Origin: a virus
IMG/VR virus record: IMGVR_UViG_3300032298_000906
Span: 1-27,315 of that record
DNA: 27,315 nt
Strand: one strand, 5' to 3'
This document shows, in pieces, positions 1 through 22,555 of this stretch. Both the position numbers and the translations under genes were made by a program. The notes under the pieces were generated by a model. The model worked only from the letters and a program-made list of their open reading frames with translations. It ran no database searches and was not told the DNA's origin. The stretch's first letter is position 1. Each line of letters opens with the position of its first letter.

Positions 1-2493
1 ATGCATTGTATTCAAACGCCAATCTGCTTGATGCTTCATTATTTCAACAAGTTTAGATACTGTAGTTGCTTCTGTTGCTGTAGCATATGGTTCGTTGATA
101 TCTTGTGATTCTGTATTTCCTGATGTAGGAGTTACTATAGTCCCTTGAATAATATCCTGAACTATAGAGTCAACATGTTCAAATGTTGTTACAGTATAAT
201 ACGAATCAGAAATATTAACTAGGCTTTCTGCTGGTCCTATATTAGTTGAGCGAAGTTCATCGCCTACAATTGCACATTCTGCAGGAACAATAATAGGTAA
301 TGTTTCTCTAAATATACCAGTTTTTACATTGATTGTATCATTTGGTACAACTCTATCAGGAATAGTTGATGAGTCACCGGCTGTAAGAGCAGATGTAACT
401 ATACCAATTAATGCATTAACAGTAGTAATAATTCCTGATTCAGCAGTTAATGTAGCATCAACAAATTGTCCAACAGGACTTGGTACGCTGTTTAAAGTTT
501 GATAGCTTTGTGCAGGAGTATCTTGATTAAGAATATCCTCAATTAATGATGCCATAAAATTAAAAGCGGCAACATCGTTGTCAGCTTCTGTAGCAAGATT
601 TAGATAAGTTCCTGTTCCGTTATTTTCAGCAATAGTTGAATATGGACCTTCGTCGAGTGCATTTACATAAGTTTGAGCAGCAGCTCTCATCTTTAAGTTA
701 CCGCCGTGACCAATATCATAGATAATACGATCTATTAAAAATCCTACGTCACGTTCACACTTTGCTGAATTGTAAGTAAAGCCATTCCAAATTCCAGACC
801 CGCCGGCATTTGCTATTTGATAAGTTATCCATTCTATAACTTCTTTTTGTATGAACGGACGATTTAATTCAAGTATCTTTTGAGCTTGTGGGTTTCTAGG
901 ACCTTTTAATACTTGCTCTGTAGCATAACGAACGGTTTTCCAAGGTTTATCAAGTGTTATTCCCCATCCTTCTACAGGATCACCGTCTGTACCAGTTTCA
1001 GCAACATAATAAACGGCTGTTATAACTCCCCAATACTTCCATGAAGGAATACTATTACTAACAGTTAATACTTGTCCTTCGGTTCCCCTTGCTAACCTTG
1101 TAGGTCCTGCACCGTCATAATAAACGATATCACCTACAGTAGTCATTACTTCGTTTTCGTTACCCGAAGCTAAAAGATTCCAATAAGTTCCATTTACATC
1201 AACATCAGGTACATTAGTTGCAATTGTAGAACCGTCGTCACCTTCACTGACATGACCTTGAACGCATATATAAGAATTAGAACCTCTCTTAACAGCATCA
1301 CCTAATTCATATTCTGTATCGTCGGTCCAAGTACCTCTCCATTTGATACCATAGTTTAATCTTGACCAATAAGTTGGATTGGGTGGCTGTTGATTAACAT
1401 TATCTGCTATAGCAACATAGGTGTAACCATTAAGTCTAACAATATCACCGATTTTATAATCCATATTTGAGGAATCTTCTCCCCAATCTCCTAAAAATCT
1501 AAATCCTGTTGTAAAAATATCCCAATCGTCGGAATTTGATGTTGGCTTTTGAGCAAGATTATTAGTAGTTTTACTAACATAAACATATCCGCCATAGGTA
1601 ACAATATCACCGTGTTGGTAACTTGTAAAGGGACTCCAAGAATTTTCAAATTCTAATGCTTCAACAAATTGATCAAATTTTGCTTCATCAAATGTAGCAG
1701 TCGATGTATGATTATTTGTACAAATCCATATGCCTGAACCATATTTTACAACATCGTTAACTTTATATCTTGTTCCTGCATTCCATGTTTGCTTATATTC
1801 TATGCCTTTATTAAAATAATCCCATTTACTTTGATCATTTTCTAAACCAAGTGCAACTGTTGCGGCAGATGTATGTCCTGTATTACACACATATGTTTGA
1901 CCGCCATGTCTAACAATATCATTTCTTTTATATCTTGTATCAGGAAGCCAATCAGATTTCCATTCGAATGTTTCTGCATATAAATCCCATTTACTTTGAT
2001 CATTTTCTAAACCAAATGCTGCGGTTGAGGCAGATGTATGATGTGTATTACAAATATAAGTTATTCCGCCATATCTTACAACATCACTAACTTTATATCT
2101 AGTATCAGTTCCCCAGACACCTTTCCAATCAGTTCCTTCAGCATATAGATCCCATTTAGTTTGATTGGATTCTAGACCTAAAGTTTCTGTAGCACCGGAT
2201 GTATGTCCTTCATTACAAATATACAAGTATCCGCCGTATCTTACAATATCATTTACTTTGTAATATGTAGCAGTTAGCCAAGGACCTTTCCACTCGTGTC
2301 CTTCGTTCATTTGATTCCAGCGAGCAGGAACATTATCTAAATCAGTGTAAAAATCACTATCAGCAGTATGTCCAATTACACAAACAAAAATTGACCCACC
2401 ATAACGGACAATATCGTCCTTATAGTAAGTTGTAGAAGCAACCCATGCTCCCTTCCATATAAATCTAATTCTACCTAATTTAAACTCAGCCAT
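1..2493 (-). CDS. Giant fibre-like virion protein, N-terminal 831 residues (runs off the window)
   Basis: The frame is open without a stop from the ATG at 2493 to base 1, so the 3' end lies outside the window. A Shine-Dalgarno (CGGAG) precedes the ATG and a late-promoter-like AATAAATA lies 20 bases upstream. Residues 1 to about 444 hold eight modules of about 50 residues with the pattern W..x5-Y.x2-DIVRYGG..Y.C..xHTS, reminiscent of small carbohydrate-binding modules of the CBM5/12 type, but that is only a resemblance. From about residue 493 a pectin-lyase-like beta-helix begins (VYYVAETGTD, later NVKTGIFRETLPIIVP). It is interrupted at about 540 to 720 by a helical insertion containing CERDVGFLIDRIIYDIGHGG. 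A second similar insertion seems to start near the window edge (IVQDIIQGTIVTPTSGN). It is a collinear paralogue of the gene starting at 7240. The likely role is a tail fibre or other adhesin on the virion surface; this is inferred from architecture and context. Confidence 0.85.
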   Translation of the reverse strand, partial: MAEFKLGRIRFIWKGAWVASTTYYKDDIVRYGGSIFVCVIGHTADSDFYTDLDNVPARWNQMNEGHEWKGPWLTATYYKVNDIVRYGGYLYICNEGHTSGATETLGLESNQTKWDLYAEGTDWKGVWGTDTRYKVSDVVRYGGITYICNTHHTSASTAAFGLENDQSKWDLYAETFEWKSDWLPDTRYKRNDIVRHGGQTYVCNTGHTSAATVALGLENDQSKWDYFNKGIEYKQTWNAGTRYKVNDVVKYGSGIWICTNNHTSTATFDEAKFDQFVEALEFENSWSPFTSYQHGDIVTYGGYVYVSKTTNNLAQKPTSNSDDWDIFTTGFRFLGDWGEDSSNMDYKIGDIVRLNGYTYVAIADNVNQQPPNPTYWSRLNYGIKWRGTWTDDTEYELGDAVKRGSNSYICVQGHVSEGDDGSTIATNVPDVDVNGTYWNLLASGNENEVMTTVGDIVYYDGAGPTRLARGTEGQVLTVSNSIPSWKYWGVITAVYYVAETGTDGDPVEGWGITLDKPWKTVRYATEQVLKGPRNPQAQKILELNRPFIQKEVIEWITYQIANAGGSGIWNGFTYNSAKCERDVGFLIDRIIYDIGHGGNLKMRAAAQTYVNALDEGPYSTIAENNGTGTYLNLATEADNDVAAFNFMASLIEDILNQDTPAQSYQTLNSVPSPVGQFVDATLTAESGIITTVNALIGIVTSALTAGDSSTIPDRVVPNDTINVKTGIFRETLPIIVPAECAIVGDELRSTNIGPAESLVNISDSYYTVTTFEHVDSIVQDIIQGTIVTPTSGNTESQDINEPYATATEATTVSKLVEIMKHQADWRLNTMH
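1160..2490 (-). repeat. Eight tandem W/Y-DIV-YGG protein modules
   Basis: Within the partial giant gene, eight units of about 50 codons follow each other. Each starts with an aromatic residue-K/R-G-x-W, followed by Y-x-x-x-D-I/V-V, an YGG turn and Y-I/V-C. Units 2 to 5 end in HTS-type loops; units 6 and 7 lack the Cys and the HTS. Units 2, 3 and 4 are close to each other at the protein level, including a shared GLExxQxKWD segment. Confidence 0.85.
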
Positions 2494-2513
2494 TTTCTGC
2501 TCCGACGATAATG

Positions 2514-2521
2514 TATTTATT
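2514..2521 (-). promoter_or_regulatory. T4-type late promoter candidate (AATAAATA)
   Basis: On the minus strand the sequence reads AATAAATA, seven of eight matches to the T4 late consensus TATAAATA. It lies in the 40-base gap between two giant genes. With the usual T4 spacing, RNA would start near 2508 and give a leader of about 15 bases carrying the CGGAG ribosome site. Confidence 0.6.
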
Positions 2522-2533
2522 TTAATTTAAATG

Positions 2534-5500
2534 TTAAAATTCCGTATCATTACTAAAAGAGTCTATAAAATAGGTCATTGCTAGTAAAGATCCTGTAAAT
2601 CCTTTTGTCATATTAACTTTTCTGTTAATAATTACTTCATCACCTGTTGTAGTTCCTATAACTTGTGGTCCCACACGAACTACACCTGCTGTTAATAGGC
2701 TACAAAGTGCATTTGCACCACCTCCAGAAATACTTGCTTCTAAGTATCCTTTAATAGCCCTTTGTGTAGGAATAATATTATTAGAATCAGCAGTAAATGT
2801 ACTATCTTTTGAAAATTCTCTAATAATTACGCCTGTACCACCTACGCTAACGGCACCTAGAGAAATTTCACTTAATCCAGTTAATTCAAATAAATCAGCA
2901 CTAATTGTAACAGTACCAGTTGACTGTTCAACTTTAAATAGTTCTCCAACACGGAAATTACCATTTTGATCGGTTGCTGTATAGAATACACGCCCGCCGC
3001 CTCTTTCAAAAACTTCATTTTCTGGTGATAATAGTGCAGGAGGAGTACCTGGATAATTTGAACTTTCAAAATTACCTGTACCTATTTCGAGAAAATCATG
3101 ACCTGTTAGACGTACTTGACTGTATTGCTGTCTAATAGTAATATCAGCACCGTGCTCCGGCGATTCCTCAATACCTATTTCAGGTGCTATTCTTAATTTT
3201 GCTTGATAATTTCCTGATGACCCACCTAGCTGTTCTATGGTAATAATCTTATAAGTAAGATCATTAATTTCTTCAATATTTAAGTTATCACCAGGTCCTG
3301 GTAATACTGTTAAATTATTAATAATTATATATCTTCCAGTTTGATAATTATCAGAATACCCATCACCTGATATTTCTACTGTTGTGGATGGTGATAGATA
3401 TCCAGTTCCTGGATTAAGTATTACAGGATTTGCTAGGACACCTGATCCCTTTCTAACACGAAGATATACGTCATTTACATTATTAGGATCAATAACTGTT
3501 ACTGTTGGAGTTAAACTATATCCGCTACCTGGCTCGATAATATTAACTTTGGAAATTCTTCCTGATGTAACATAAGCGCGACCGATAGTTCTTGCTCCTG
3601 TTAAAATAGAAGCAGCATTAGATGTACCTGATGCAATAGCTACCCAAATTCCACTATTAGAAGGATTTCCAAAAGCTAACCCTGTCCATGTTTGTGAAGA
3701 TGGTAATGTAAATGCTGTACTATCATCACCTGTATTTCTCCAAAGATAACCATCATTAGAATAAGCTACAGTGTTTGATGATGCGACAGCTAAAAATACA
3801 CCCTGTCCGTAAGCAACTTTACTCCAATTTGCTGAAGTAGTCATTTGACTTATTATCCATGTTACTCCTGTAAATGAATATGCACAAATAATACTTCCAG
3901 AAGCTACAGCAACAAATCTGCCGTTTCCGTAAGTAACCGATGACCATGATATCGAAGACGGTAAAGTAGCTGATGACCATGTTACTCCGTCATCTATTGA
4001 GTATGCAGCATTAGTTCCTCCACTTGCAATTGCAACCCAGACGCCGCTGCCGTATGCTATTGACGACCATGTAGTTGATGTTGGTAAAGCGCCACCATTT
4101 GACCACGATAATCCTGTAATAGATGTTGCCGTAGATGTTCCTCCAGTAGCAATAGCTATAAAAGTATTATTTCCGTAAGCAACGTCGATCCAATTAGCAG
4201 TTGAACTTATTATTCCACTAGTCCAAGTTTGCCCACCATTTGACGATATTGCTGCTTGGTTGCTTCCTTGTTTAACAGCAAGATGTTTACTGTTTCCATA
4301 TGTTATTGCAGTCCAAGTTCCTGAACTTGGTAAAGTTCCCCCAATATTCCATGTTGTTCCGTTAGAAGAAATAGATGTCTCGTCTGTTCCTGTAGCAATA
4401 GCAACAAAATTTCCATCACCATAAGCTACGTCAGTCCACGACGATGATGCTGACAACGATCTACTATTTGAAGCAAATCCAGGAAAATCAAAAATTACTC
4501 TAGGTTCTATTTTATATACTGTAGTTGTGTTTAAAGCATTTTCAATAGCATAGCCAGGATAAAAATTTTCCCAGCCTCCTTGACCGTCTAATTCTCTAAA
4601 TACGGTAGCAACTTTAGAAGAATCATCATATGAACTAATATAACCATATTGTCCTGCCCCGGTGCCGCCTGTTAAAACAATACGCATTCCTTCGTATTCT
4701 TCGGGGGTCCCGTCGTCTGATGCTGCTAATATAACTGATAATTGATCTCCACCTTGAGCATTATTTGTAATAGTAAAATATTCTGTACCACCTGCTGCTG
4801 ACGAATCTCCCGGAGTATAAACTCTTACTTGATATACGGCATTATCTCTAATTTCTTCGTGTGATAACGATGCATTTAATCCTGCTCCGTTAACTGAATA
4901 CGTAGTAAATGTTGCTGTGCTATAATTCTGCCCAGCATTATTATATTCAAGTCTCATTAGTTCGCCGACTTTAGTAATTACACTATCAACTAATGCTTCT
5001 TGACTTCTATTGTTTACTGTAGCAGTTATAGCAGTTTCAGCTAAATCGTATCCTTCTGCAACACAGCCATATGTTCCGTATGATGAGTTTCCGTTTGTTG
5101 CACGAATTTTACCTCCATTATCTGACAGATATCCAATATGTCCGTAATAAGAGAATACAGAAACAAGTTCTGAAAGTCCTGAATTAGTAACCCAAGCACC
5201 AATACCGTCACTTAAAACTTGAGTAAAGTCGTTAGCTACAATAGAAGTATTACCTCCGTCGTGCAATGCACCGTCAACTTTTAATCCAATACAAGCCGTT
5301 CCAAATGTTGTAACATTTTGTATATAAGGTGATCTTGTTGAAATCCAAACTGATGAGTCTGATGTTCCGGATCCTGGGTCAAGACTTACATAAGCACCTG
5401 CTGTGGGTCTTCTTGTTCCGTATATGTTTGGTGTTCCTAATGTTCCGCTTAATCCTTTTAAGGTCATGTTACGAATACCTGTAGCATTTCTCACATAGAA

Positions 5501-7240
5501 CATGTTTTCAGTTTCGTACCCAGGTGCAGCAACAATAGTAGTTCCTCTTAATTCGTCTCCTACTAATGCAACTCCTTCAGGAATACTAATAGGAAGTTCC
5601 TCATAATATGTTCCAGTTTTTATGAAAATTGTTGCTGGACCAGAAATACTTTCACAGGCATGTTTAACAGTAGCCCACGGAGAATCTAAAGATTCTCCGT
5701 GATTATTATCGTCGCCTTCGACAGCAACATAGTAAACTTTATTAATTTTATTAAAATCATCCCAATTAACTTCACCGCTGAATATTTTTAAGGCTTGTGA
5801 TTGATCACCAATTGATCTTCTAATCGATCTATTATCTAGTGTTATAGAATTAAGACCGAATGTTTTAATATCACCGGGTTCAGCAAGAACATTTGTTTGA
5901 TTACCTTGAACAAATTCTTCCCAATATGTATTTGATAAATCTACATCTGGTCTATTAGTGCCGCTTGATGCATTATGATTTAATATACATTTGTATGCTG
6001 TACTAATATAGGTAATTACGTCACCATATAAATATTCCGTTCCATTAATCCATCTACCTCTATATCTCTCTCCAGGAATAAGTAATTCCCAATAAGATAT
6101 ATCGTTAGGATTAACTCCGTTTGAGTCTTGAATAGCAACATATACCATGCCGCCTCTACGAATAACATCACCTACTTTATAATCTTGAGCTGTAGAGTCA
6201 TCTCCCCAATCACCTCTTATTCTAAAGTTTGTAGTTAACAATTCCCAATCGTCTGTTTGTACTGACGGTATTTGTCCTACATTATTTGTTAGGGCAAAAT
6301 AATTGTATCCACCATAATTTACTACATCACCTTTTTGATAGATAGTATGTACATCCCAGGTATTATCGAATTCAAATCCAGGAAGATATACTTCCCATTT
6401 AGATTCGTCAAAAATATCTGTTTGAGTAGTATGAAATTCTCTGCATATCCATAATGATGCTCCATACTTAACAATATCATTTAATTTATATCTATAAAAA
6501 TTAGAATCAAAAGTTCCTTTATATTCTATACCTTCATAGAGAGTTGTCCATTTAGACTGGTCGTCTTCTAATCCTGCCCCTTCAAACGCATGTGATACGT
6601 GTGCTGTATTACAAATATAAACAATTCCACCGTATTTAATGATATCATTTAATCTGTATCTTGTTCCTAATTGCCAATTACTTCGCCATAATTCTGTATT
6701 AGTGATTTGTTGCCATTTAGAAAAATCATCTTCCAATCCTAAAAGAGTAGTATCAGCAGAAACGTGATTAAACAAACATTTATAAATTACACCACCATAT
6801 TTTACAATATCATTAGTAACATAAGATGTACTAGTAGACCAATTATATCTCCAATTATTAGTTGATGTATAAGTTATCCAATTTGATGAATCATCATCAA
6901 AATCTATCTCACTACTTACTGATGTATGACTTTCTATACAGATATAAACAGTACCATTCTTTTTAATTAAATTACCTATTTGATAAAAGGTATCAACAGT
7001 CCAATCGCCCGTCCATTCGTACCCATCAAACATTAATTCCCAATATGGATCCGGTTGCGGTGGAATTTGAGTATCAACAGCTTCAAAGTCAGTATAAAAA
7101 TTAGCACTCGATGTATGTGTTTTTAAAGCAACATAAGTCTTACCACCATAACGAACTACATCGTCTTTAATGTAATTATAGCCATTTGCCCAATTTCCAA
7201 TCCATCTAAATCTAATTCTAGCTATTTTAAATTCAGCCAT
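2534..7240 (-). CDS. Giant fibre-like virion protein with beta-helix and Asp-box beta-propeller (1568 aa)
   Basis: Domain order: residues 1 to 445, eight W/Y-DIV-YGG modules, collinear with those of the neighbouring partial gene; about 502 to 913, a pectin-lyase-like beta-helix (VYYVAVEGDD, TIFIKTGTYYEELPISIP, GDELRGTTIV); about 932 to 1225, seven repeats of W..VAYGxGxFVAIASG followed by SxDxGxTW Asp-box motifs, which fits a seven-bladed propeller; then Gly-rich PGSGY motifs. Near the C-terminus is a FRVGELF module and the ending IIPTQRAIKGYL..SISGGG, a motif I recall from long structural proteins of marine T4-like phages. The start is set by ATG after a weak GGGGT site and a perfect late promoter 27 bases upstream. 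The likely role is a tail-fibre or baseplate-attached adhesin; glycan binding by the propeller is inference. No enzymatic residues can be claimed. Confidence 0.88.
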   Translation of the reverse strand: MAEFKIARIRFRWIGNWANGYNYIKDDVVRYGGKTYVALKTHTSSANFYTDFEAVDTQIPPQPDPYWELMFDGYEWTGDWTVDTFYQIGNLIKKNGTVYICIESHTSVSSEIDFDDDSSNWITYTSTNNWRYNWSTSTSYVTNDIVKYGGVIYKCLFNHVSADTTLLGLEDDFSKWQQITNTELWRSNWQLGTRYRLNDIIKYGGIVYICNTAHVSHAFEGAGLEDDQSKWTTLYEGIEYKGTFDSNFYRYKLNDIVKYGASLWICREFHTTQTDIFDESKWEVYLPGFEFDNTWDVHTIYQKGDVVNYGGYNYFALTNNVGQIPSVQTDDWELLTTNFRIRGDWGDDSTAQDYKVGDVIRRGGMVYVAIQDSNGVNPNDISYWELLIPGERYRGRWINGTEYLYGDVITYISTAYKCILNHNASSGTNRPDVDLSNTYWEEFVQGNQTNVLAEPGDIKTFGLNSITLDNRSIRRSIGDQSQALKIFSGEVNWDDFNKINKVYYVAVEGDDNNHGESLDSPWATVKHACESISGPATIFIKTGTYYEELPISIPEGVALVGDELRGTTIVAAPGYETENMFYVRNATGIRNMTLKGLSGTLGTPNIYGTRRPTAGAYVSLDPGSGTSDSSVWISTRSPYIQNVTTFGTACIGLKVDGALHDGGNTSIVANDFTQVLSDGIGAWVTNSGLSELVSVFSYYGHIGYLSDNGGKIRATNGNSSYGTYGCVAEGYDLAETAITATVNNRSQEALVDSVITKVGELMRLEYNNAGQNYSTATFTTYSVNGAGLNASLSHEEIRDNAVYQVRVYTPGDSSAAGGTEYFTITNNAQGGDQLSVILAASDDGTPEEYEGMRIVLTGGTGAGQYGYISSYDDSSKVATVFRELDGQGGWENFYPGYAIENALNTTTVYKIEPRVIFDFPGFASNSRSLSASSSWTDVAYGDGNFVAIATGTDETSISSNGTTWNIGGTLPSSGTWTAITYGNSKHLAVKQGSNQAAISSNGGQTWTSGIISSTANWIDVAYGNNTFIAIATGGTSTATSITGLSWSNGGALPTSTTWSSIAYGSGVWVAIASGGTNAAYSIDDGVTWSSATLPSSISWSSVTYGNGRFVAVASGSIICAYSFTGVTWIISQMTTSANWSKVAYGQGVFLAVASSNTVAYSNDGYLWRNTGDDSTAFTLPSSQTWTGLAFGNPSNSGIWVAIASGTSNAASILTGARTIGRAYVTSGRISKVNIIEPGSGYSLTPTVTVIDPNNVNDVYLRVRKGSGVLANPVILNPGTGYLSPSTTVEISGDGYSDNYQTGRYIIINNLTVLPGPGDNLNIEEINDLTYKIITIEQLGGSSGNYQAKLRIAPEIGIEESPEHGADITIRQQYSQVRLTGHDFLEIGTGNFESSNYPGTPPALLSPENEVFERGGGRVFYTATDQNGNFRVGELFKVEQSTGTVTISADLFELTGLSEISLGAVSVGGTGVIIREFSKDSTFTADSNNIIPTQRAIKGYLEASISGGGANALCSLLTAGVVRVGPQVIGTTTGDEVIINRKVNMTKGFTGSLLAMTYFIDSFSNDTEF
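3570..4440 (-). repeat. Seven Asp-box (BNR-like) repeats, predicted seven-bladed beta-propeller
   Basis: Residues about 932 to 1225 of the 1568-residue protein contain seven units of about 41 to 46 residues. Each opens with W-x-x-V/I-A-Y-G and F/W-V/I-A-I/V-A-S-G. Most contain a variant of the Asp-box S-x-D/N-x-G-x-T-W, for example SIDDGVTW, SSNGGQTW and SNDGYLW. The last unit is degenerate. Asp-boxes are typical turns in sialidase-type and related propellers. Confidence 0.75.
5903..7237 (-). repeat. Eight tandem W/Y-DIV-YGG protein modules
   Basis: This is the second set of eight modules, at residues 1 to 445 of the 1568-residue protein. Unit by unit it matches the set in the gene starting at 2493: unit 5 begins YKxT, unit 6 begins F-[DE]-N-x-W, unit 7 begins RGDW or LGDW with an extra DDSxxxDYK segment, and unit 8 ends in an extended PDVD..YW loop. 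The two sets end at almost the same residue number. Confidence 0.85.
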
Positions 7241-7266
7241 TTTTTACCCCAATTCTTTATTCTCAA

Positions 7267-7274
7267 TATTTATA
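7267..7274 (-). promoter_or_regulatory. T4-type late promoter (perfect TATAAATA)
   Basis: The minus strand reads TATAAATA, an exact match to the T4 late -10 octamer, followed by TTGAG. It overlaps the stop codon of the upstream 117-residue gene and lies 27 bases before the ATG at 7240. With T4 spacing, RNA would start near 7261. Confidence 0.75.
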
Positions 7275-7623
7275 TACCAGTAGGATATGTATATCCAGAG
7301 TTAACTCTTGCAACTAATTGTCCATCATCGTCAATATAGTAATAGATAGCTCTATCATCCCAGCGATATTGTTCATATTTTAAATTATCAAAAACAACAC
7401 CGTGATAAACATCTCGTCCTTCGTAAAAATCGACTCCAACTACAAAGTCATCGTAGTTTTCTTCAGTAGGTCCTAGATTATTAATGTTAATACTATCATT
7501 ACCTTTAAGTTGATCAACTCTACCTAGATATAATTCACCGTCATCTGTTCTACGTAATCCGTAGAAATATCTAGGATTGTCTCCTAACAAGCCATCTGGT
7601 TGTGTACCTATGTAATAAGTCAT
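7270..7623 (-). CDS. Small structural protein of the marine T4-like type (117 aa)
   Basis: A complete ORF with an AAGGA ribosome site before the ATG, spaced ten bases after the stop of the preceding 109-residue gene. It begins MTYYIGTQPDGLLGDNPRYF and is rich in Tyr and Asp, with no transmembrane segment or signal peptide. I recall proteins with this start (GTQPDGLLGDNPRYFYGLRR) from marine myoviruses, where they are uncharacterised. Its position between two pairs of giant fibre genes suggests a virion component or a fibre assembly partner, but no fold or activity can be read from the sequence. The stop codon overlaps the late promoter of the next gene. Confidence 0.8.
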   Translation of the reverse strand: MTYYIGTQPDGLLGDNPRYFYGLRRTDDGELYLGRVDQLKGNDSININNLGPTEENYDDFVVGVDFYEGRDVYHGVVFDNLKYEQYRWDDRAIYYYIDDDGQLVARVNSGYTYPTGI

Positions 7624-7633
7624 TTATTTTTCC

Positions 7634-7963
7634 TTATAATATTTCAACGTATGATACAATTGCATCAATAGAATCACTAACGCTAGACGACACATACAAT
7701 TCATTTGACGGGGCTAAAATTAGCTTTTCACCTCCGTTTACAACTCTTAAACTGCTTTGTGGACCTAACAATACATCTTTAATATAATACCCTGTAACAC
7801 TAGTATCGTCTTTAACTGTTACACTAACTGTTAGTGGGTCTTCTGTTAAGTTTGCTAGGCTTAATCCTATAACAGTAATTCTAGATGCAACAGTAGTTTG
7901 TGCTACTCTTACAGGAACTGTTCCTATTTCTTTTATTACTGAATTTTTAAAAAATGACGCCAT
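7634..7963 (-). CDS. Small beta-rich virion protein (109 aa)
   Basis: Complete ORF with AGGATAAG before the ATG, starting four bases after the stop of the 1922-codon giant gene, so probably co-translated with it. The protein alternates hydrophobic beta strands (TVPVRVAQTTV, LTVSVTVKDD) and ends in a SSSVSDSIDAIVSYVEIL-type strand pair. The layout resembles the 115-residue protein at 18724 to 19071: both have a short N-terminal strand, a middle polar loop, a P/G-x-G/S-x-x-L/F step near residue 70 and a final I-x-T/Y-V-x-I/L ending. They may be distant paralogues with a beta-sandwich fold. Function unknown; a fibre-associated structural protein is the most natural guess. Confidence 0.78.
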   Translation of the reverse strand: MASFFKNSVIKEIGTVPVRVAQTTVASRITVIGLSLANLTEDPLTVSVTVKDDTSVTGYYIKDVLLGPQSSLRVVNGGEKLILAPSNELYVSSSVSDSIDAIVSYVEIL

Positions 7964-7967
7964 TTTC

Positions 7968-10900
7968 TTATCCTAAAGTTAATACTGTTGTAATTGCTAT
8001 ATCTTCTGCTTGTGCTACTGTTACACCAGATGATGTACCAGCAGCCGATTGCCAAGTAATTCCATCAAATATTTCAAGTCTATTATCATCTGTGTTATAT
8101 CTTGTAAATCCTATAAATGATGCAGGACTTACTGTAACATCTGGTCTTTGAGCAGCATCGCCAACCGGTACTCTAAATCCAGTAGTACCTGCAATCTTAA
8201 AATAACCTGTACCTGTATGAGTTAATTCTGTAACACCATCTGTAACGGTATTTGTGATAACATTATTTTTGAAGGAAAAATCTTCAAAAATAACTTTGCC
8301 TGTTCCTGCTGCTGTAATATCTATTGACTGATTATTAATAGATCCAATAGTATTTCCGTCGATGAATAAATCATCAACTTCTACTCTAACAGCGTTAAGT
8401 CTTGTTGCTGTCATATCAGCAATTTGAACACCGTTAGCATAGAAATAGAAAGTATTATCATTTGCACCAGGAGTTGATTCTGCTACAAGATATGTGTTTT
8501 GATCAACATCATAGAGACCGTTTATTACTCTCCAATAAGTTCCGTCATAACCTTCATAATTATTATTAGAAGTATTATAACGAATCATACCTGCTAAAGG
8601 AGTACCTGGTCTCTCACCGGTAGTTCCTCTTGGTATTCTTATTGCTTGTGTTGTATTAATATCAACAATACCAGTTCCACTTGGTTGCATAGTAATATTA
8701 GTACCACTAGCAACTGATATAATATTTTGATTTACAGTAATATCTTCAAGTTTGATTCCACCAGTACCATTTGCACGAAGTTCTAAATCTGCATTAGAAA
8801 CAGTTGTTCTAATAACATTTGTATTAATTTCAATGTCACTTATAAATGTATTTTCAGCATAAAGAGTTTTCCATCTTTTAGCAGCAGAACCCAAATTATA
8901 AGTTACTGGTAAATTAGGAATAATATCACTGTTGATTTCAGCAGCAAAACTTATATTGTCTGTATTTTCGTTACCTACTGTAATATTACCACCGATAGTT
9001 ACATTACCTGTAACATTCAAATCACCAGTAATATTAGTATCACCTAAAATGTCAAGAGTAGTTGCAGGATCTAATATAAGATTAGTTGTTCCGTTAGTTG
9101 AAATAATATTTTCATTTATATCAACTTGCTCAACTCTAATTGCACCAGTACCATTTGCTTTTAATTCGAGATTAGCATTTGACTCTGTAGTTGTTATTAT
9201 ATTAGTATCAATATAAATGTTGTCAATAAAAGCACTTGATAAGTGTGCTATTTTCCAATTCTTTGTTGGAGAACCTAAATTATAAGTTGCTGTAAAATTA
9301 GGCTCAATGTTAGAATTAACTCTAGCATTGAATACTATATTATCTGTATTATCCGTACCTAAATCTAAATTACCATCGAAACTTGAATTACCAGTAACAT
9401 GTAAATCACCATTTATATTTGTAGTAGATGCAGTAATATCGAGTGTAGTAGCTGGTTGAATTAATAAATTATCTGTGCCGTTTGTTTTTATAAGATTTTC
9501 ATTGATATCAATCTTTTCAATTCTAATAGCACCAGTACCGTTAGCTCTTAATTCAAGATTAGCATTTGATGCAACAGTTGTTATTATATTTGTATCAATA
9601 TAGATATCGTCAATATAAGCACTTGCTAACCAAGCATTTCTCCATGCTTTAGTGCTTGATCCTAAATCATATGTAGCAGCGTATGTTGGAACAATATTTG
9701 AACTTGCTCTAGCATTGAATACAACATTGTCTGAACTATCTGATCCTAATACTACATTAGAATCAAGTGAAACATTTCCAGTTACGTGTAAATCACCATT
9801 TACATTAGTAGTTGAAGCAGTAATATCTAATGTAGTTGCTGGTTGAATTAGTAGATTATTACCAACAGTGTAAATTAAATTTTCATTTATATAAGTTTGT
9901 TCAAGTTGAATTGATCCTGTACCGTTAGCACGAAGTTCTAAATTACTATTTGAAACAACAGTTTGTATAATATTAGTGTCAATTAAGATGTCATCAATGT
10001 ATGCGCTAGATAGATAAGCAGTTTTCCATGCCTTTGAAGATGACCCTAAATCATATGCACTTGTTATAGAAGGAATAATATCTGTATTAACTCTAGCATT
10101 GAATATAACATTGTCTGTTGCATCTGTACCTAATGTAGTATTTGTATCTATTGAAACATTGCCTGTAACATGCATTGTTCCATTTACATTAGTAGTTGAT
10201 GCTGTTATATCTAAAGTAGTAGCTGGAGTTATTTGAATATTACCAGAATCCGTAGAAATTACATTTTGATTTACTCTGATATCTTCAACTAAAATTGATC
10301 CAGTACCATTTGCTCTTAATTCTAAATCTGCATTAGAAATAGTTGTTCTAATATAGTTTGTGCTAATTTCAATGTCGCTGATATGAGCAGTTCTTACCCA
10401 AAGGTCTTTCCATTGTAAACTATCAGATCCAATATTATATGTTGCTGGAAGATTAGGTATAATATCACTATCAATACCTGCAACAAATTGAACACTATCA
10501 GTAGTTTGATCACCTAATGTAATATTACCACCAATAGTTACATTTCCTACAACATCTAAACTTCCTGATATGTTTACATCACTTAAAAGGTTTATATTAT
10601 TATCAGCAGCGGTAATATTGATTTCGTTTGTAAGACTTTGAATAGTATTACCGCTAATTCTTATATCACCTGTTTCTACTTTTGTAGGTGTTATGATAGT
10701 GACATTTGATCCATCAGTTAAAGTTAGTCCAGTAGATCCAATAATGTTAATAATACTATTAGTAAATTGTACAGCACCTGTTTGTTGATTTACATAAAAT
10801 AAATCACCTACTCTAAAATCACCCTTGTGATCAACAGATGAATAATAGATATTAGCACCGTTTAATTCAACAATTTCGTTTGCTTGTATAACTTGTAAAG

Positions 10901-13736
10901 GATCGTTTTCTTGGCTTCCACCTAGTCCAATATATGCAAGGTTCTGTCCGATGAGGTACATAATAACACCTTCACCGTCTCCATATATTCCGTAATCACC
11001 GTATACCGCAGCAGACCCAATTGATCTAACTTCTGCACCAAAGTCTGCATAATCTACTAAAGTAAATTGTGTAGCAGTAGCACCGCTTGGAGTAAAACGA
11101 ATATCTTGAACTAATGTGCTATCATCTTCATATGTTGTTGATCCATTTGGACCATCAAAGTGTAAAAGTAAAACAGTATAAGTATCACTACCATATGCAG
11201 AAGTTGGAACAACAAATGAACTAGTATATCTACCAATACCTTTAGACACACGGAAGTCATCAATATAGGCATTTAAATGTGCAGTACTGTTCCAATAAGC
11301 ACCGATGTTTAAAGGTTTTGCAATATAATTATTAGAGTCTGTATAAGTTGTAGTTTCAACTGTTCCGTTGATAAACATTCTTGTAACACCACTTACTCTT
11401 GAAATAGCAATGTTATGCCAAGCATTATCTGATAAAGGTGCTGCCGCTGTTATTTGGAAAGCACCCTGTACATATAATTTTACAAATCCAGCGCTCGATA
11501 CTTCTACTAATAATGCTGCTTGAGCCACAGCAGAAGTTCTCATATCGAATATACTTTGAGTTAGTGCTGAAGCAACAAAGTAAACCCAAAACTCAACAGT
11601 AAAGTCACCTGTACCAAATGCAAAATCATCGTTAGCAGCAATAGTTATTTCGTCACTTGTTGCTGTCACAAACTGACCACTTGATCCACCAAACTTTGAT
11701 TGAGCTGTAGAAATCTGTGCACCACCACTAGGTGTAACAGATTTTCCTACACGACTACTATATTCAACAAATCCACTTTCTTTACCGTTTATATAAATTT
11801 TAGATCCGCTTGTAGATGCAATAGTTCCGGAACCTAATAATGTAACTCCGTCTTCTGCATAATATTCAATAGTATCACCTACATTATAGACACCTGTAAC
11901 ACCATCTACAGCAAGAATAGTTTGTCCTGCACCACCTTTACCAGTTGTACCACTATAAGCATAAAGTCCTTTTGTTGCCCAGTATGTAAAGCAATTAAGC
12001 CATTCAACACGAACACCTTCCGTCATTACAATATTATCAACACCTGGACAAAGGAAAGTAACAGAATGGAAAAGCATTGATGCTTCATTAGTAGTAGGAT
12101 CTGCTACGCTACCATCAATAAATGCCCCTCGACCAGCATCATGCTGATCAAAACCTCTAGGATCTGTTGGATAATATTGCCAGAACCCTATACCTGCTTT
12201 AATAGTTTCTTCATTACCGTCATGTTGTATATCATATATTAAAGCATCAAGAATAATTCCTAAATCTCTTTCAGCTTTTGTTTGATCATATGTTCCCCAG
12301 AAACCTGGATAGTTAATATTAACCCAAGCAACCATTTCCGCTTTTAAGAAATCTATATTACTTGTTATAAGAGCAGCAGCATTTAATTTAACAGTATCAG
12401 TTGTTAATGCGCTGTTAGGTGTTATAGTAGGTAGACTTGTTCCACTTGCTCCATTGCCTATAATATAGATTACATCATCAATTAATGCTTGTAGAGAAGA
12501 AGCAGTTGTTCCGTCACTTGGATTTGTTAAATCAGTTATTCGTGTCTCGGAGTTTCCTAAAGATGGAGTTATAACACCGTTAGTTACAATCTCATCTATA
12601 ATATCTTTAATTCTTAAAATACTTCCATCATTTGCTGCTTGATAAGTTGCAACTGCTAAACTAGTAGGAGTACCAAACGATATAACAGAACAGTTTCTAA
12701 TATATGGTGATCTTAATGTAACTTTGATATTATTATCAAATCGGAAAGCATGACCTGTATTAGCTATAGAATTGTAAAAATGTCCTTTAACGGTTATATC
12801 TTCTATAGTGGATTCACCGTTTAATAAAAATACATCTTGATCTCTTGTACTAGGTCTAGGAGTTATTATAGTGTTTCTTAAACTTGAGCCTTTTACTGTA
12901 ACACCTGCTGGTACAGTTAAAGGACATATTTCTTCATATGTTCCTGGATAGATATAAACAGTATCACCGTCTACTGCTACAGATAGAGCATGTTCAATAC
13001 TAGCAAAGCAATCATTTTGATGATAACCACCATTTGTGTCATCACCGTTTGAAGAAACATATATTATATTACCTTGAATTTGAGAAACATCTACACCGTC
13101 AACAATAACATTAGTTGCTAAAACATTTGTAGCAATAAAGTTATTTGTCCAAATACTGTTCCAACGATTAGTTGCACTACCTAAATTGTAATAATCTGTA
13201 ATATTTGGAATAATGTCACTATTAACATCAGCATTAAAAACAATATTATCAGTATTTTGATCACCGAGAACAATACTGCCATCAGCAGTAATATTTCCAG
13301 TAGCATGAATGCTACCGTCAACAAACATATCTGAATAAACTTTAAGAGTTCCAGTTCCGCTAACTCTAATTTCCATATCAGCATTTGTAGTGTTTGTAGT
13401 AATGAAATTATCTTGAATGTCTATTTGATCGATAGTTAATCTATTTTGATAGATAATACCATCACTTGCTGCAATTAGGTTAAGTGTAGGAACATTACTA
13501 GAAATAGTATTACCTGTGATGGTAATATTATCAATGTCTAATTGATTATCTACTTGTAAGTATGTTGTTCTTGTTGTACCGTCTACATGTAAATCGTGGG
13601 TTGGAGCATTTGTGTTTATTCCGACACGTAAATTATTAACATCTAGATATAAAAGATCGTTCTCAAAAGCCAGATCAACCCCGTCGCGGAGAAGGTTTGC
13701 TTTTAAGAGCGGTCCTGAAATACGACCTACGGACAT
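7968..13736 (-). CDS. Giant tail-fibre-like protein with beta-helix, LamG-like insertion and tandem repeats (1922 aa)
   Basis: The N-terminus (MSVGRISGPLLKANLLRDG, then DLLYLDVNN) matches the gene starting at 18228. The order is: N-terminal repeat-type module (about residues 100 to 210); pectin-lyase-like beta-helix from about 225 (YVSSNGDDTNGGYHQND, VYIYPGTYEEICPLTVPAG); a helical insertion at about 359 to 523 (KAERDLGIILDALIYDIQHD); an insertion at about 595 to 897 containing a concanavalin/LamG-like domain (FTVEFWVYF, WHNIAISRV, YIDDFRVSKG, LLLHFDG); a FRVGDLF module; modules of about 128 residues centred on PATTLDIT; and two C-terminal IRYNT/TRYNT tip modules. A GGGGAG ribosome site and a 90-base leader behind a late promoter set the start. 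The likely role is a virion adhesin or long tail-fibre subunit. Oligomer state and receptor are unknown. Confidence 0.88.
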   Translation of the reverse strand: MSVGRISGPLLKANLLRDGVDLAFENDLLYLDVNNLRVGINTNAPTHDLHVDGTTRTTYLQVDNQLDIDNITITGNTISSNVPTLNLIAASDGIIYQNRLTIDQIDIQDNFITTNTTNADMEIRVSGTGTLKVYSDMFVDGSIHATGNITADGSIVLGDQNTDNIVFNADVNSDIIPNITDYYNLGSATNRWNSIWTNNFIATNVLATNVIVDGVDVSQIQGNIIYVSSNGDDTNGGYHQNDCFASIEHALSVAVDGDTVYIYPGTYEEICPLTVPAGVTVKGSSLRNTIITPRPSTRDQDVFLLNGESTIEDITVKGHFYNSIANTGHAFRFDNNIKVTLRSPYIRNCSVISFGTPTSLAVATYQAANDGSILRIKDIIDEIVTNGVITPSLGNSETRITDLTNPSDGTTASSLQALIDDVIYIIGNGASGTSLPTITPNSALTTDTVKLNAAALITSNIDFLKAEMVAWVNINYPGFWGTYDQTKAERDLGIILDALIYDIQHDGNEETIKAGIGFWQYYPTDPRGFDQHDAGRGAFIDGSVADPTTNEASMLFHSVTFLCPGVDNIVMTEGVRVEWLNCFTYWATKGLYAYSGTTGKGGAGQTILAVDGVTGVYNVGDTIEYYAEDGVTLLGSGTIASTSGSKIYINGKESGFVEYSSRVGKSVTPSGGAQISTAQSKFGGSSGQFVTATSDEITIAANDDFAFGTGDFTVEFWVYFVASALTQSIFDMRTSAVAQAALLVEVSSAGFVKLYVQGAFQITAAAPLSDNAWHNIAISRVSGVTRMFINGTVETTTYTDSNNYIAKPLNIGAYWNSTAHLNAYIDDFRVSKGIGRYTSSFVVPTSAYGSDTYTVLLLHFDGPNGSTTYEDDSTLVQDIRFTPSGATATQFTLVDYADFGAEVRSIGSAAVYGDYGIYGDGEGVIMYLIGQNLAYIGLGGSQENDPLQVIQANEIVELNGANIYYSSVDHKGDFRVGDLFYVNQQTGAVQFTNSIINIIGSTGLTLTDGSNVTIITPTKVETGDIRISGNTIQSLTNEINITAADNNINLLSDVNISGSLDVVGNVTIGGNITLGDQTTDSVQFVAGIDSDIIPNLPATYNIGSDSLQWKDLWVRTAHISDIEISTNYIRTTISNADLELRANGTGSILVEDIRVNQNVISTDSGNIQITPATTLDITASTTNVNGTMHVTGNVSIDTNTTLGTDATDNVIFNARVNTDIIPSITSAYDLGSSSKAWKTAYLSSAYIDDILIDTNIIQTVVSNSNLELRANGTGSIQLEQTYINENLIYTVGNNLLIQPATTLDITASTTNVNGDLHVTGNVSLDSNVVLGSDSSDNVVFNARASSNIVPTYAATYDLGSSTKAWRNAWLASAYIDDIYIDTNIITTVASNANLELRANGTGAIRIEKIDINENLIKTNGTDNLLIQPATTLDITASTTNINGDLHVTGNSSFDGNLDLGTDNTDNIVFNARVNSNIEPNFTATYNLGSPTKNWKIAHLSSAFIDNIYIDTNIITTTESNANLELKANGTGAIRVEQVDINENIISTNGTTNLILDPATTLDILGDTNITGDLNVTGNVTIGGNITVGNENTDNISFAAEINSDIIPNLPVTYNLGSAAKRWKTLYAENTFISDIEINTNVIRTTVSNADLELRANGTGGIKLEDITVNQNIISVASGTNITMQPSGTGIVDINTTQAIRIPRGTTGERPGTPLAGMIRYNTSNNNYEGYDGTYWRVINGLYDVDQNTYLVAESTPGANDNTFYFYANGVQIADMTATRLNAVRVEVDDLFIDGNTIGSINNQSIDITAAGTGKVIFEDFSFKNNVITNTVTDGVTELTHTGTGYFKIAGTTGFRVPVGDAAQRPDVTVSPASFIGFTRYNTDDNRLEIFDGITWQSAAGTSSGVTVAQAEDIAITTVLTLG
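8640..10690 (-). repeat. Tandem fibre repeats of about 384 to 387 bp
   Basis: Within the 1922-codon gene the PATTLDIT core recurs near 9058, 9445, 9832 and 10216, giving spacings of 387, 387 and 384 bases. Each unit carries SNxNLELRANGTG, then ENxI, PATTLDIT, NGDLHVTGN, TDN-x-x-FNA, SNIxP, YNLGS-x-x-xWK and a DTNII-type end. Less similar modules flank the array on both sides. Confidence 0.88.
11160..11710 (-). other. LamG/concanavalin A-like domain inside the 1922-aa protein
   Basis: Residues about 680 to 858 show the usual strand markers of a LamG-like jelly roll: F-T-V-E-F-W-V-Y early, D-N-A-W-H-N-I-A-I-S-R in the middle, M-F-I-N-G-T-V, then A-Y-I-D-D-F-R-V-S-K and a final L-L-H-F-D-G. The domain is absent from the paralogue at 13852 to 18228. 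The fold is recognised by pattern only; ligand binding is not shown. Confidence 0.75.
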
Positions 13737-21379: not shown

Positions 21380-22555
21380 TTAAGAGAACTTGACGTTACC
21401 GTTTGTGATACCAACAAGTCCAAGGTAGTCAGCAGCGTTACCGAGTGAAGAAGCTGCATTGCTGAGCTCTACATATCCGTAACGTGTCATGAAGCTAACA
21501 ACTGGCTCGAAAGTAGTTGGATCAAGAACAACACCTGAACTCATTAGTGGGATATATGGGCAGTAGAACGCAGCAGCGTCTGACTCACTTGAACCCTTAT
21601 AACCAATAAGAACAGATGTACTGTCTGATGCGTAAGCATTAACATATACTCTCATTGCACTATTAAGTGTACCAACGAACTTAGTGTTTGTTGGAGCCTC
21701 AAAAGTTCCTTCAGTTGTACGAGCAAATGCTGATGTAGTTGCTGACTGAAGGATTGTTAGTGCGAATGGTGATACAACTGCCCAGTTACCTGCACCACGA
21801 CGTGTACGCTGTGCAATTAGGTTTGAAACGCGGTTGATCTGTACTGCAAGAGCAGCATGTTCGTCACCAACGAAAGTTGCAACACCACTTACAGTTGACT
21901 GGTCATATGTTTCAACAGCTGAACCAGCAAGTGTAGTTAGTGATGTTAGGATTTCCTGATCAATTTCAGCAGTAATTTCTTGAGCAAGTGCTGCCATGAT
22001 TTCTGCTTCGATATCGATACCTTGCTGAGCCTGTGCATCCTGTGCAGCCTCAAAAGTCCAACGAGCTGATAGCTTGCGTGACTTAGCTTCTACAACCTGC
22101 TTGAGGATCTGAATGCTCATTCTCTTACCAGCAGCACCTTCTAGTGATGCAGTTGAGTTAGCACGTGGTGTAGCAGCAACTTCATTACCAGAATAAGCAG
22201 CAGCAATCTTGAATGGGCTTAGTGCCTCTTCGCCTGCAACTGTTCCAGCACCACTTGATGTGTCAGCATAGCGAACACGAAGTGTGTGGATTTGTCCTAC
22301 TGGACCAGTCATTGGCTGAACGCCAACTAGTTCGTTAGCAATAACTGTCGGCATAACACGACGAATTACTGGAAGAATTACTCTGTTAAGAGTAGCAACA
22401 TTGCCGGCAGATGTAGCACCAGCAGTAGCTGATTCTGCGAGATACTTACGAGTATTCTCGAGTGTAACTGCCATTACTGACTTACGATTCCCTTGAAGGC
22501 CTTCAAGAAGTGCCTCTTTAGTGTCGTGCCAGCGGCTTTCTAATAGTTCTGACAT
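21380..22555 (-). CDS. gp23: Major capsid protein, T4 gp23 family (391 aa)
   Basis: Forms the hexamers of the phage head. The family signature is visible at residues 61 to 97: PVIRRVMPTVIANELVGVQP, MTGPVGQIHTLRVRYA. T4 gp23 has the equivalent VGVQPM-x-x-P-x-GQ-x-x-x-LR run. The protein is shorter than the 521-residue T4 protein, consistent with a reduced or missing insertion domain, as seen in many marine relatives. Candidate gp21 cleavage sites of the form L-x-E before a small residue occur at E6-S7, E18-G19 and L39-A40-E41/S42; the last would remove a 41-residue propeptide. The ATG has an AAGGAG site 9 to 14 bases upstream, within the gp22 stop region. The gene follows gp22 and ends just before a strong terminator, as expected for the most highly expressed head gene. 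Confidence 0.96.
   Translation of the reverse strand: MSELLESRWHDTKEALLEGLQGNRKSVMAVTLENTRKYLAESATAGATSAGNVATLNRVILPVIRRVMPTVIANELVGVQPMTGPVGQIHTLRVRYADTSSGAGTVAGEEALSPFKIAAAYSGNEVAATPRANSTASLEGAAGKRMSIQILKQVVEAKSRKLSARWTFEAAQDAQAQQGIDIEAEIMAALAQEITAEIDQEILTSLTTLAGSAVETYDQSTVSGVATFVGDEHAALAVQINRVSNLIAQRTRRGAGNWAVVSPFALTILQSATTSAFARTTEGTFEAPTNTKFVGTLNSAMRVYVNAYASDSTSVLIGYKGSSESDAAAFYCPYIPLMSSGVVLDPTTFEPVVSFMTRYGYVELSNAASSLGNAADYLGLVGITNGNVKFS

Follow-up and report, generated by a model that had tools for sequence, protein, structure and literature searches.

A predicted seven-bladed Asp-box-type beta-propeller as an optional insert in a long tail fibre of an uncultured, putatively T4-like phage

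The window analysed here is the whole 27,315-base virus record IMGVR_UViG_3300032298_000906 of IMG/VR, in which most genes are encoded on the minus strand. Two tandem paralogous genes for long fibre proteins occupy one end, and the first of them runs off the window edge. The features of this region are as follows.

1..2493, minus strand: tandem paralogue, N-terminal 831 aa, gene cut by the window edge and completed in contig L008
2534..7240, minus strand: whole tail-fibre gene P0001, 1568 aa (open reading frame and translation; PHROG tail fiber protein phrog_9851, E=2e-187)
5906..7204, minus strand: N-terminal CBM5/12-like repeat array, about residues 13-445 (Pfam PF02839, E=2.5e-36, 6 stretches)
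5036..5743, minus strand: central region, about residues 500-735 (PHROG matches, tblastn to cyanophage fibres)
4496..5041, minus strand: beta-rich domain on the N-terminal side of the propeller, about residues 734-915 (confident in the larger model)
3575..4447, minus strand: seven-bladed Asp-box-type beta-propeller, residues 932-1222 (repeats, blade HMM, AlphaFold2, structural matches)
4325..4447, minus strand: blade 1, residues 932-972, shortened Asp-box SSNGTTW
4202..4324, minus strand: blade 2, residues 973-1013, canonical Asp-box SSNGGQTW at 999
4079..4201, minus strand: blade 3, residues 1014-1054, degenerate box SITGLSW
3956..4078, minus strand: blade 4, residues 1055-1095, canonical Asp-box SIDDGVTW at 1081
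3836..3955, minus strand: blade 5, residues 1096-1135, degenerate box SFTGVTW
3698..3835, minus strand: blade 6, residues 1136-1181, shortened box SNDGYLW
3575..3697, minus strand: blade 7, residues 1182-1222, no Asp-box
3122..3574, minus strand: beta-rich domain on the C-terminal side of the propeller, about residues 1223-1373 (confident in the larger model)
2534..3121, minus strand: conserved C-terminal part with RLTGHDFL, TDQDGNFRVG, and PTQRAI motifs (homologue alignments)

The major head protein (window 21383-22555) shares 70-73% identity with those of jumbo T4-like phages (e.g., Sinorhizobium phage Phosso, Serratia phage BF, and Cronobacter phage GAP32) and 79-88% identity with environmental contigs of up to 364 kb that carry the same fibre family. 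These identities, together with the large fibre-bearing contigs, suggest that the window virus is a T4-like phage of the jumbo type.

The phrog_9851 profile matches over the fibre and places P0001 among the T4-like cyanophage-type tail fibres; tblastn matched 129 phage records, and the cyanophage homologues are annotated as tail fibre. The central region also occurs in tail fibre and baseplate wedge proteins of cyanophages (PHROG matches and tblastn), and we suspect a tailspike beta-helix in this low-confidence part of the monomer model. Of the two beta-rich domains, the one at 734-915 ends in the anchor YKIEPRV and is kept in homologues whether or not they have the propeller, and the one at 1223-1373 holds the anchor EPGSGY and is kept in propeller-less paralogues. 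The C-terminal motifs also occur in cyanophage fibre reference proteins. In the larger model, computed as a monomer, both beta-rich domains flanking the propeller are confident, while the central region and the C terminus are poorly modelled, as would be expected when a presumed trimer is folded on its own. No match of full-length P0001 in Pfam or NCBIfam names the propeller.

Both fibre N termini (window:5906-7204:- and window:1-2493:-) carry arrays of 6 to 8 CBM5/12-like repeats; chitin binding has no obvious role there, and the arrays may perhaps form a shaft instead. Fibre proteins also contain up to four insertions of a probably helical module whose end is marked by a KxxRDxGxIxDAxxYDxxxGGN-like motif; these lie at about residues 580, 886, 1052, and 1269 of the completed paralogue (P0005), residue 489 of P0003 (window:7968-13736:-), and residue 573 of P0007 in L009. 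Within the 1922-aa baseplate-wedge-like protein, direct DNA repeats of about 384-387 bases are present in about two copies (window:9103-10226, 74-77% matching). Residues about 666-875 of window:7968-13736:- form a segment common to other phage virion proteins (phrog_18802 and phrog_701) that resembles a LamG/concanavalin-type lectin domain.

The propeller itself was recognised from seven W-x-x-[VIL]-[AT]-[YF]-G repeats that start at residues 935, 976, 1017, 1058, 1099, 1139, and 1185 of P0001 and define blades of ~41 aa each. These seven blades, and no others, were recovered at 20-56 bits apiece (sum 246 bits) by a blade HMM that was derived from 217 blades in other phages and excluded P0001 and its paralogue; 1,000 shuffles of the same domain scored at most -13.8 bits. 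The seven consecutive repeats reported in the first-pass annotation are thus borne out, although the limits it gave, 3570-4440, shift to 3575-4447 on the minus strand. Its description of the repeats as carrying SxDxGxTW-type Asp-boxes, a motif placed at the C-D turn in blades of Asp-box propellers, is accurate for two of the seven blades (2 and 4, with D or N at the acidic position) and does not extend to the other five; blades 3 and 5 retain S..G..W with the acidic residue gone.

An AlphaFold2 model of the propeller domain, computed from 36 aligned sequences of the window and of retrieved contigs, reached a pLDDT of 94.8 and a pTM of 0.92. The domain is predicted to be a closed ring of four-stranded blades, as in the Asp-box beta-propeller superfamily, whose members are mostly six- and seven-bladed (PMC3797127). 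The best matches of the model are solved seven-bladed propellers, in agreement with the closed seven-bladed ring first proposed from the repeats: virginiamycin B lyase leads the VIA-align comparison (Z 32, 276 aligned residues, rmsd 2.3) and Ycf48 leads in Foldseek (E 1.4e-11), with WD40 also among the top folds. A sequence-profile search against solved structures returned Ycf48 (E=2.6e-7), sortilin (E=2.9e-4), and, weakly, an exo-alpha-sialidase (E=0.0034). This search was used in place of a single-domain phmmer search of the PDB, which matched mostly designed Pizza propellers, probably an effect of repeat composition. Pfam BNR matches 1 of the 36 aligned members, and direct tblastn of the propeller domain against reference phages gave four weak records only.

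The truncated paralogue could be completed in contig L008, whose sequence matches window bases 1-13240 without a difference. The complete protein (P0005, L008:10748-17878) is 2,376 aa long; beyond the window edge it, too, has a seven-bladed propeller, in the position occupied by that of P0001. Over the part compared, identity between the two propellers is about 53%, and blade 1 of P0005 contains an insert of roughly 66 aa. The earlier observation that the visible part of the paralogue has no such repeats is correct for window 1-2493, but the contrast it drew between the two fibre genes falls because the rest of the gene encodes the same domain.

Comparison across homologues points to a discrete socket between the two beta-rich domains. 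The distance from the YxIEPR anchor to the PGSGY anchor is either 34-37 residues (empty) or about 323-461 residues (filled), and in the empty socket of L009 the flanking sequence is the same and reads straight through, YRVEPRISIGDPVSGTTARARVKVASGKIFQITLFDPGSGY. On this sequence evidence, the propeller is an optional insert in a fixed fibre socket. Most loci with two tandem paralogues combine a filled with an empty socket; the phage of the window has a propeller in each. Congruence between the propeller and scaffold trees was rejected, and so was congruence between the trees of the two scaffold flanks in a control. The propeller is the more discordant (differences of 429-708 versus 159-278 log units), but cassette exchange of propellers between phages is not demonstrated by this discordance because the scaffold flanks disagree with each other as well.

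The number of blades was counted in 69 non-redundant relatives having both scaffold anchors. Seven is the commonest count (36/69). The initial counts included many sixes and eights; most of the eights inspected have a first blade split by an insertion, most sixes have a gap where one blade was missed (with some eights and sixes not settled by hand), and counts of six and lower are mostly such gaps or weakly scoring divergent proteins. Insertions of ~200-300 residues in an early propeller blade are found in L117 (about residues 1402-1598), L109, L111, L112, L114, L118, L119, L122, and L137. Several relatives have 13 or 14 blades. Fourteen can be read off directly in L144 (residues about 1115-1815); L129 (residues about 1300-2050) has thirteen clear blades and a probable fourteenth interrupted by an insert, all within the same fibre socket, and fourteen-blade proteins also occur in L128, L131, L135, and L138. 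These proteins probably represent two tandem seven-bladed rings. Repeat number therefore does not vary widely among homologues, with a mode of seven and some fourteens.

Propellers on phage fibres are already known, including the seven-bladed phiKZ gp131C, the five-bladed receptor-binding protein (RBP) phi11 Gp45, and the K1F endosialidase (PMC4901313). The closest parallel in setting is the C-terminal domain of phiKZ gp131 (PDB 4GBF), likewise seven-bladed, at the baseplate periphery of a jumbo myophage and suspected of receptor binding (PMC4901313); the gp131 propeller is C-terminal, whereas that of P0001 is inserted between two fibre domains, and 4GBF was not among the matches listed in the PDB phmmer search of the domain or in the profile search. 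The propeller of phi11 Gp45 also lies mid-protein, in a trimeric receptor-binding protein with a proposed GlcNAc site (PMC4901313), but it has five blades and belongs to a Staphylococcus siphophage protein with a helical stem. Ycf48, a photosystem II assembly factor (PDB 2XBG and 5OJR), is likewise a seven-bladed Asp-box-type propeller and gave the best profile match and the top Foldseek matches, but it is a stand-alone cellular lipoprotein that binds the D1 peptide and has 13-15% identity to the P0001 propeller. Two uncultured Caudovirales proteins in BFVD, A0A6J7WDX3 and A0A6J7WHK8, share both the propeller and the fibre domains around it: searches with the larger model gave E 1.3e-49 and 1.1e-48, and TMq was 0.87 and 0.85 for the propeller model; they come from other phages at 23-27% identity, and their database names are silent on the propeller. 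The same architecture has thus already been deposited under other names. Cyanophage tail fibres of the P-SSM2, S-CAM1, and S-SSM7 type share the scaffold, notably the conserved C-terminal motifs, and no propeller precedes these motifs in four cyanophage reference fibre proteins. A narrow literature search found nothing specific on propellers on jumbo phage fibres and no description of the fixed socket, of paralogues with and without a propeller in it, or of the whole-ring counts, which we regard as a modest addition.

The fold, the number of blades and its constancy, the fixed socket, and the lack of conserved sialidase-type catalytic residues emerge from the computations themselves. Our favoured reading, to which we assign a probability of roughly 0.65, is that residues 932-1222 form a closed seven-bladed Asp-box-type propeller that serves as an optional plug-in of a long fibre of a T4-like, jumbo-type phage and acts as a non-enzymatic platform for binding the host surface. 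The fibre would be a trimer, anchored or extended by its N-terminal part, with the propeller displayed on its surface as the binding platform. The variable top-face loops may contact some molecule on the host surface, perhaps a glycan, and thereby adjust host recognition. Binding to a surface is a plausible role because the protein belongs to a tail-fibre family and because the propeller, an optional domain, has diverged more quickly than its flanks and has presumed top loops that are more variable than the bottom ones. At 70-80% C-terminal identity, the propeller is about 50% identical versus 72% for the N-terminal flank, and the presumed top loops exceed the bottom loops in variability (2.36 versus 1.92 bits; permutation p=0.0004), with the faces assigned from strand order and the usual propeller convention rather than from coordinates. 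Faster evolution is also compatible with a weakly constrained domain.

The main rival is a structural propeller, serving as a spacer, a trimer platform, or a contact for another virion protein with no binding of a host receptor. Propellers are often protein-protein platforms, with WD40 and Ycf48 among the top folds here, those of phi11 form a platform within the trimer (PMC4901313), and conserved fibre domains lie on both sides of the P0001 propeller. We nevertheless consider this role unlikely: the many paralogues with an empty 35-residue socket indicate that the fibre can do without the propeller, and propeller sequences diverge more quickly than the scaffold does. A decayed or passenger domain without selected function is the least probable reading of all. 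Five of the seven Asp-boxes are not canonical, as decay would predict, but the blade number and blade core are retained in relatives down to about 30% identity, and the reading frame is intact in both paralogues.

Sialidases, which have six blades, are among the Asp-box propellers, and the first-pass annotation had raised the possibility that the domain processes surface glycans. An enzyme cutting host surface glycans (a sialidase, endosialidase, or lyase) would fit the weak exo-alpha-sialidase profile match, the lyase that is the best structural match, and the existence of phage spikes that are K1F-type endosialidases. The search for catalytic residues spoke against this idea. The propeller has four Arg (1108, 1168, 1217, and 1221), kept in 23, 1, 7, and 33 of the 36 relatives, one Glu (954) that is not conserved among them, and one His (986) that is F/Y/W in most; no conserved sialidase or lyase catalytic residues were found among the 36 aligned relatives. 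The seven blades also differ from the six of sialidases. The endosialidase of phi K1F is likewise a phage spike with a propeller, but a six-bladed (PMC3797127) and catalytic one. Virginiamycin B lyase (PDB 2Z2N and 2Z2P) is the best VIA-align match, yet it is an enzyme whose H270A mutant is catalytically inactive (2Z2P title); the catalytic His270 of the S. aureus lyase has no conserved equivalent in P0001. Non-enzymatic host binding is favoured over glycan processing because no such catalytic residues are conserved, and we regard an enzymatic role as very improbable.

A broader picture is offered tentatively, as possible rather than probable. Across a widespread clade of uncultured T4-like phages of the jumbo type, a fixed socket in tandem paralogous fibres may dock receptor-binding propellers that can be exchanged. 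The socket would hold only complete rings (none, one of seven blades, or two in tandem with 14), and small extra domains would be added in particular blades. Empty and filled sockets in one genome provide a natural comparison, and whole-ring counts of 7 or 14 would exemplify propeller growth by duplication of the whole ring, not blade by blade. Should the propeller prove to be the part that contacts the host, host recognition in uncultured jumbo phages could be predicted from a module that can be recognised and counted.
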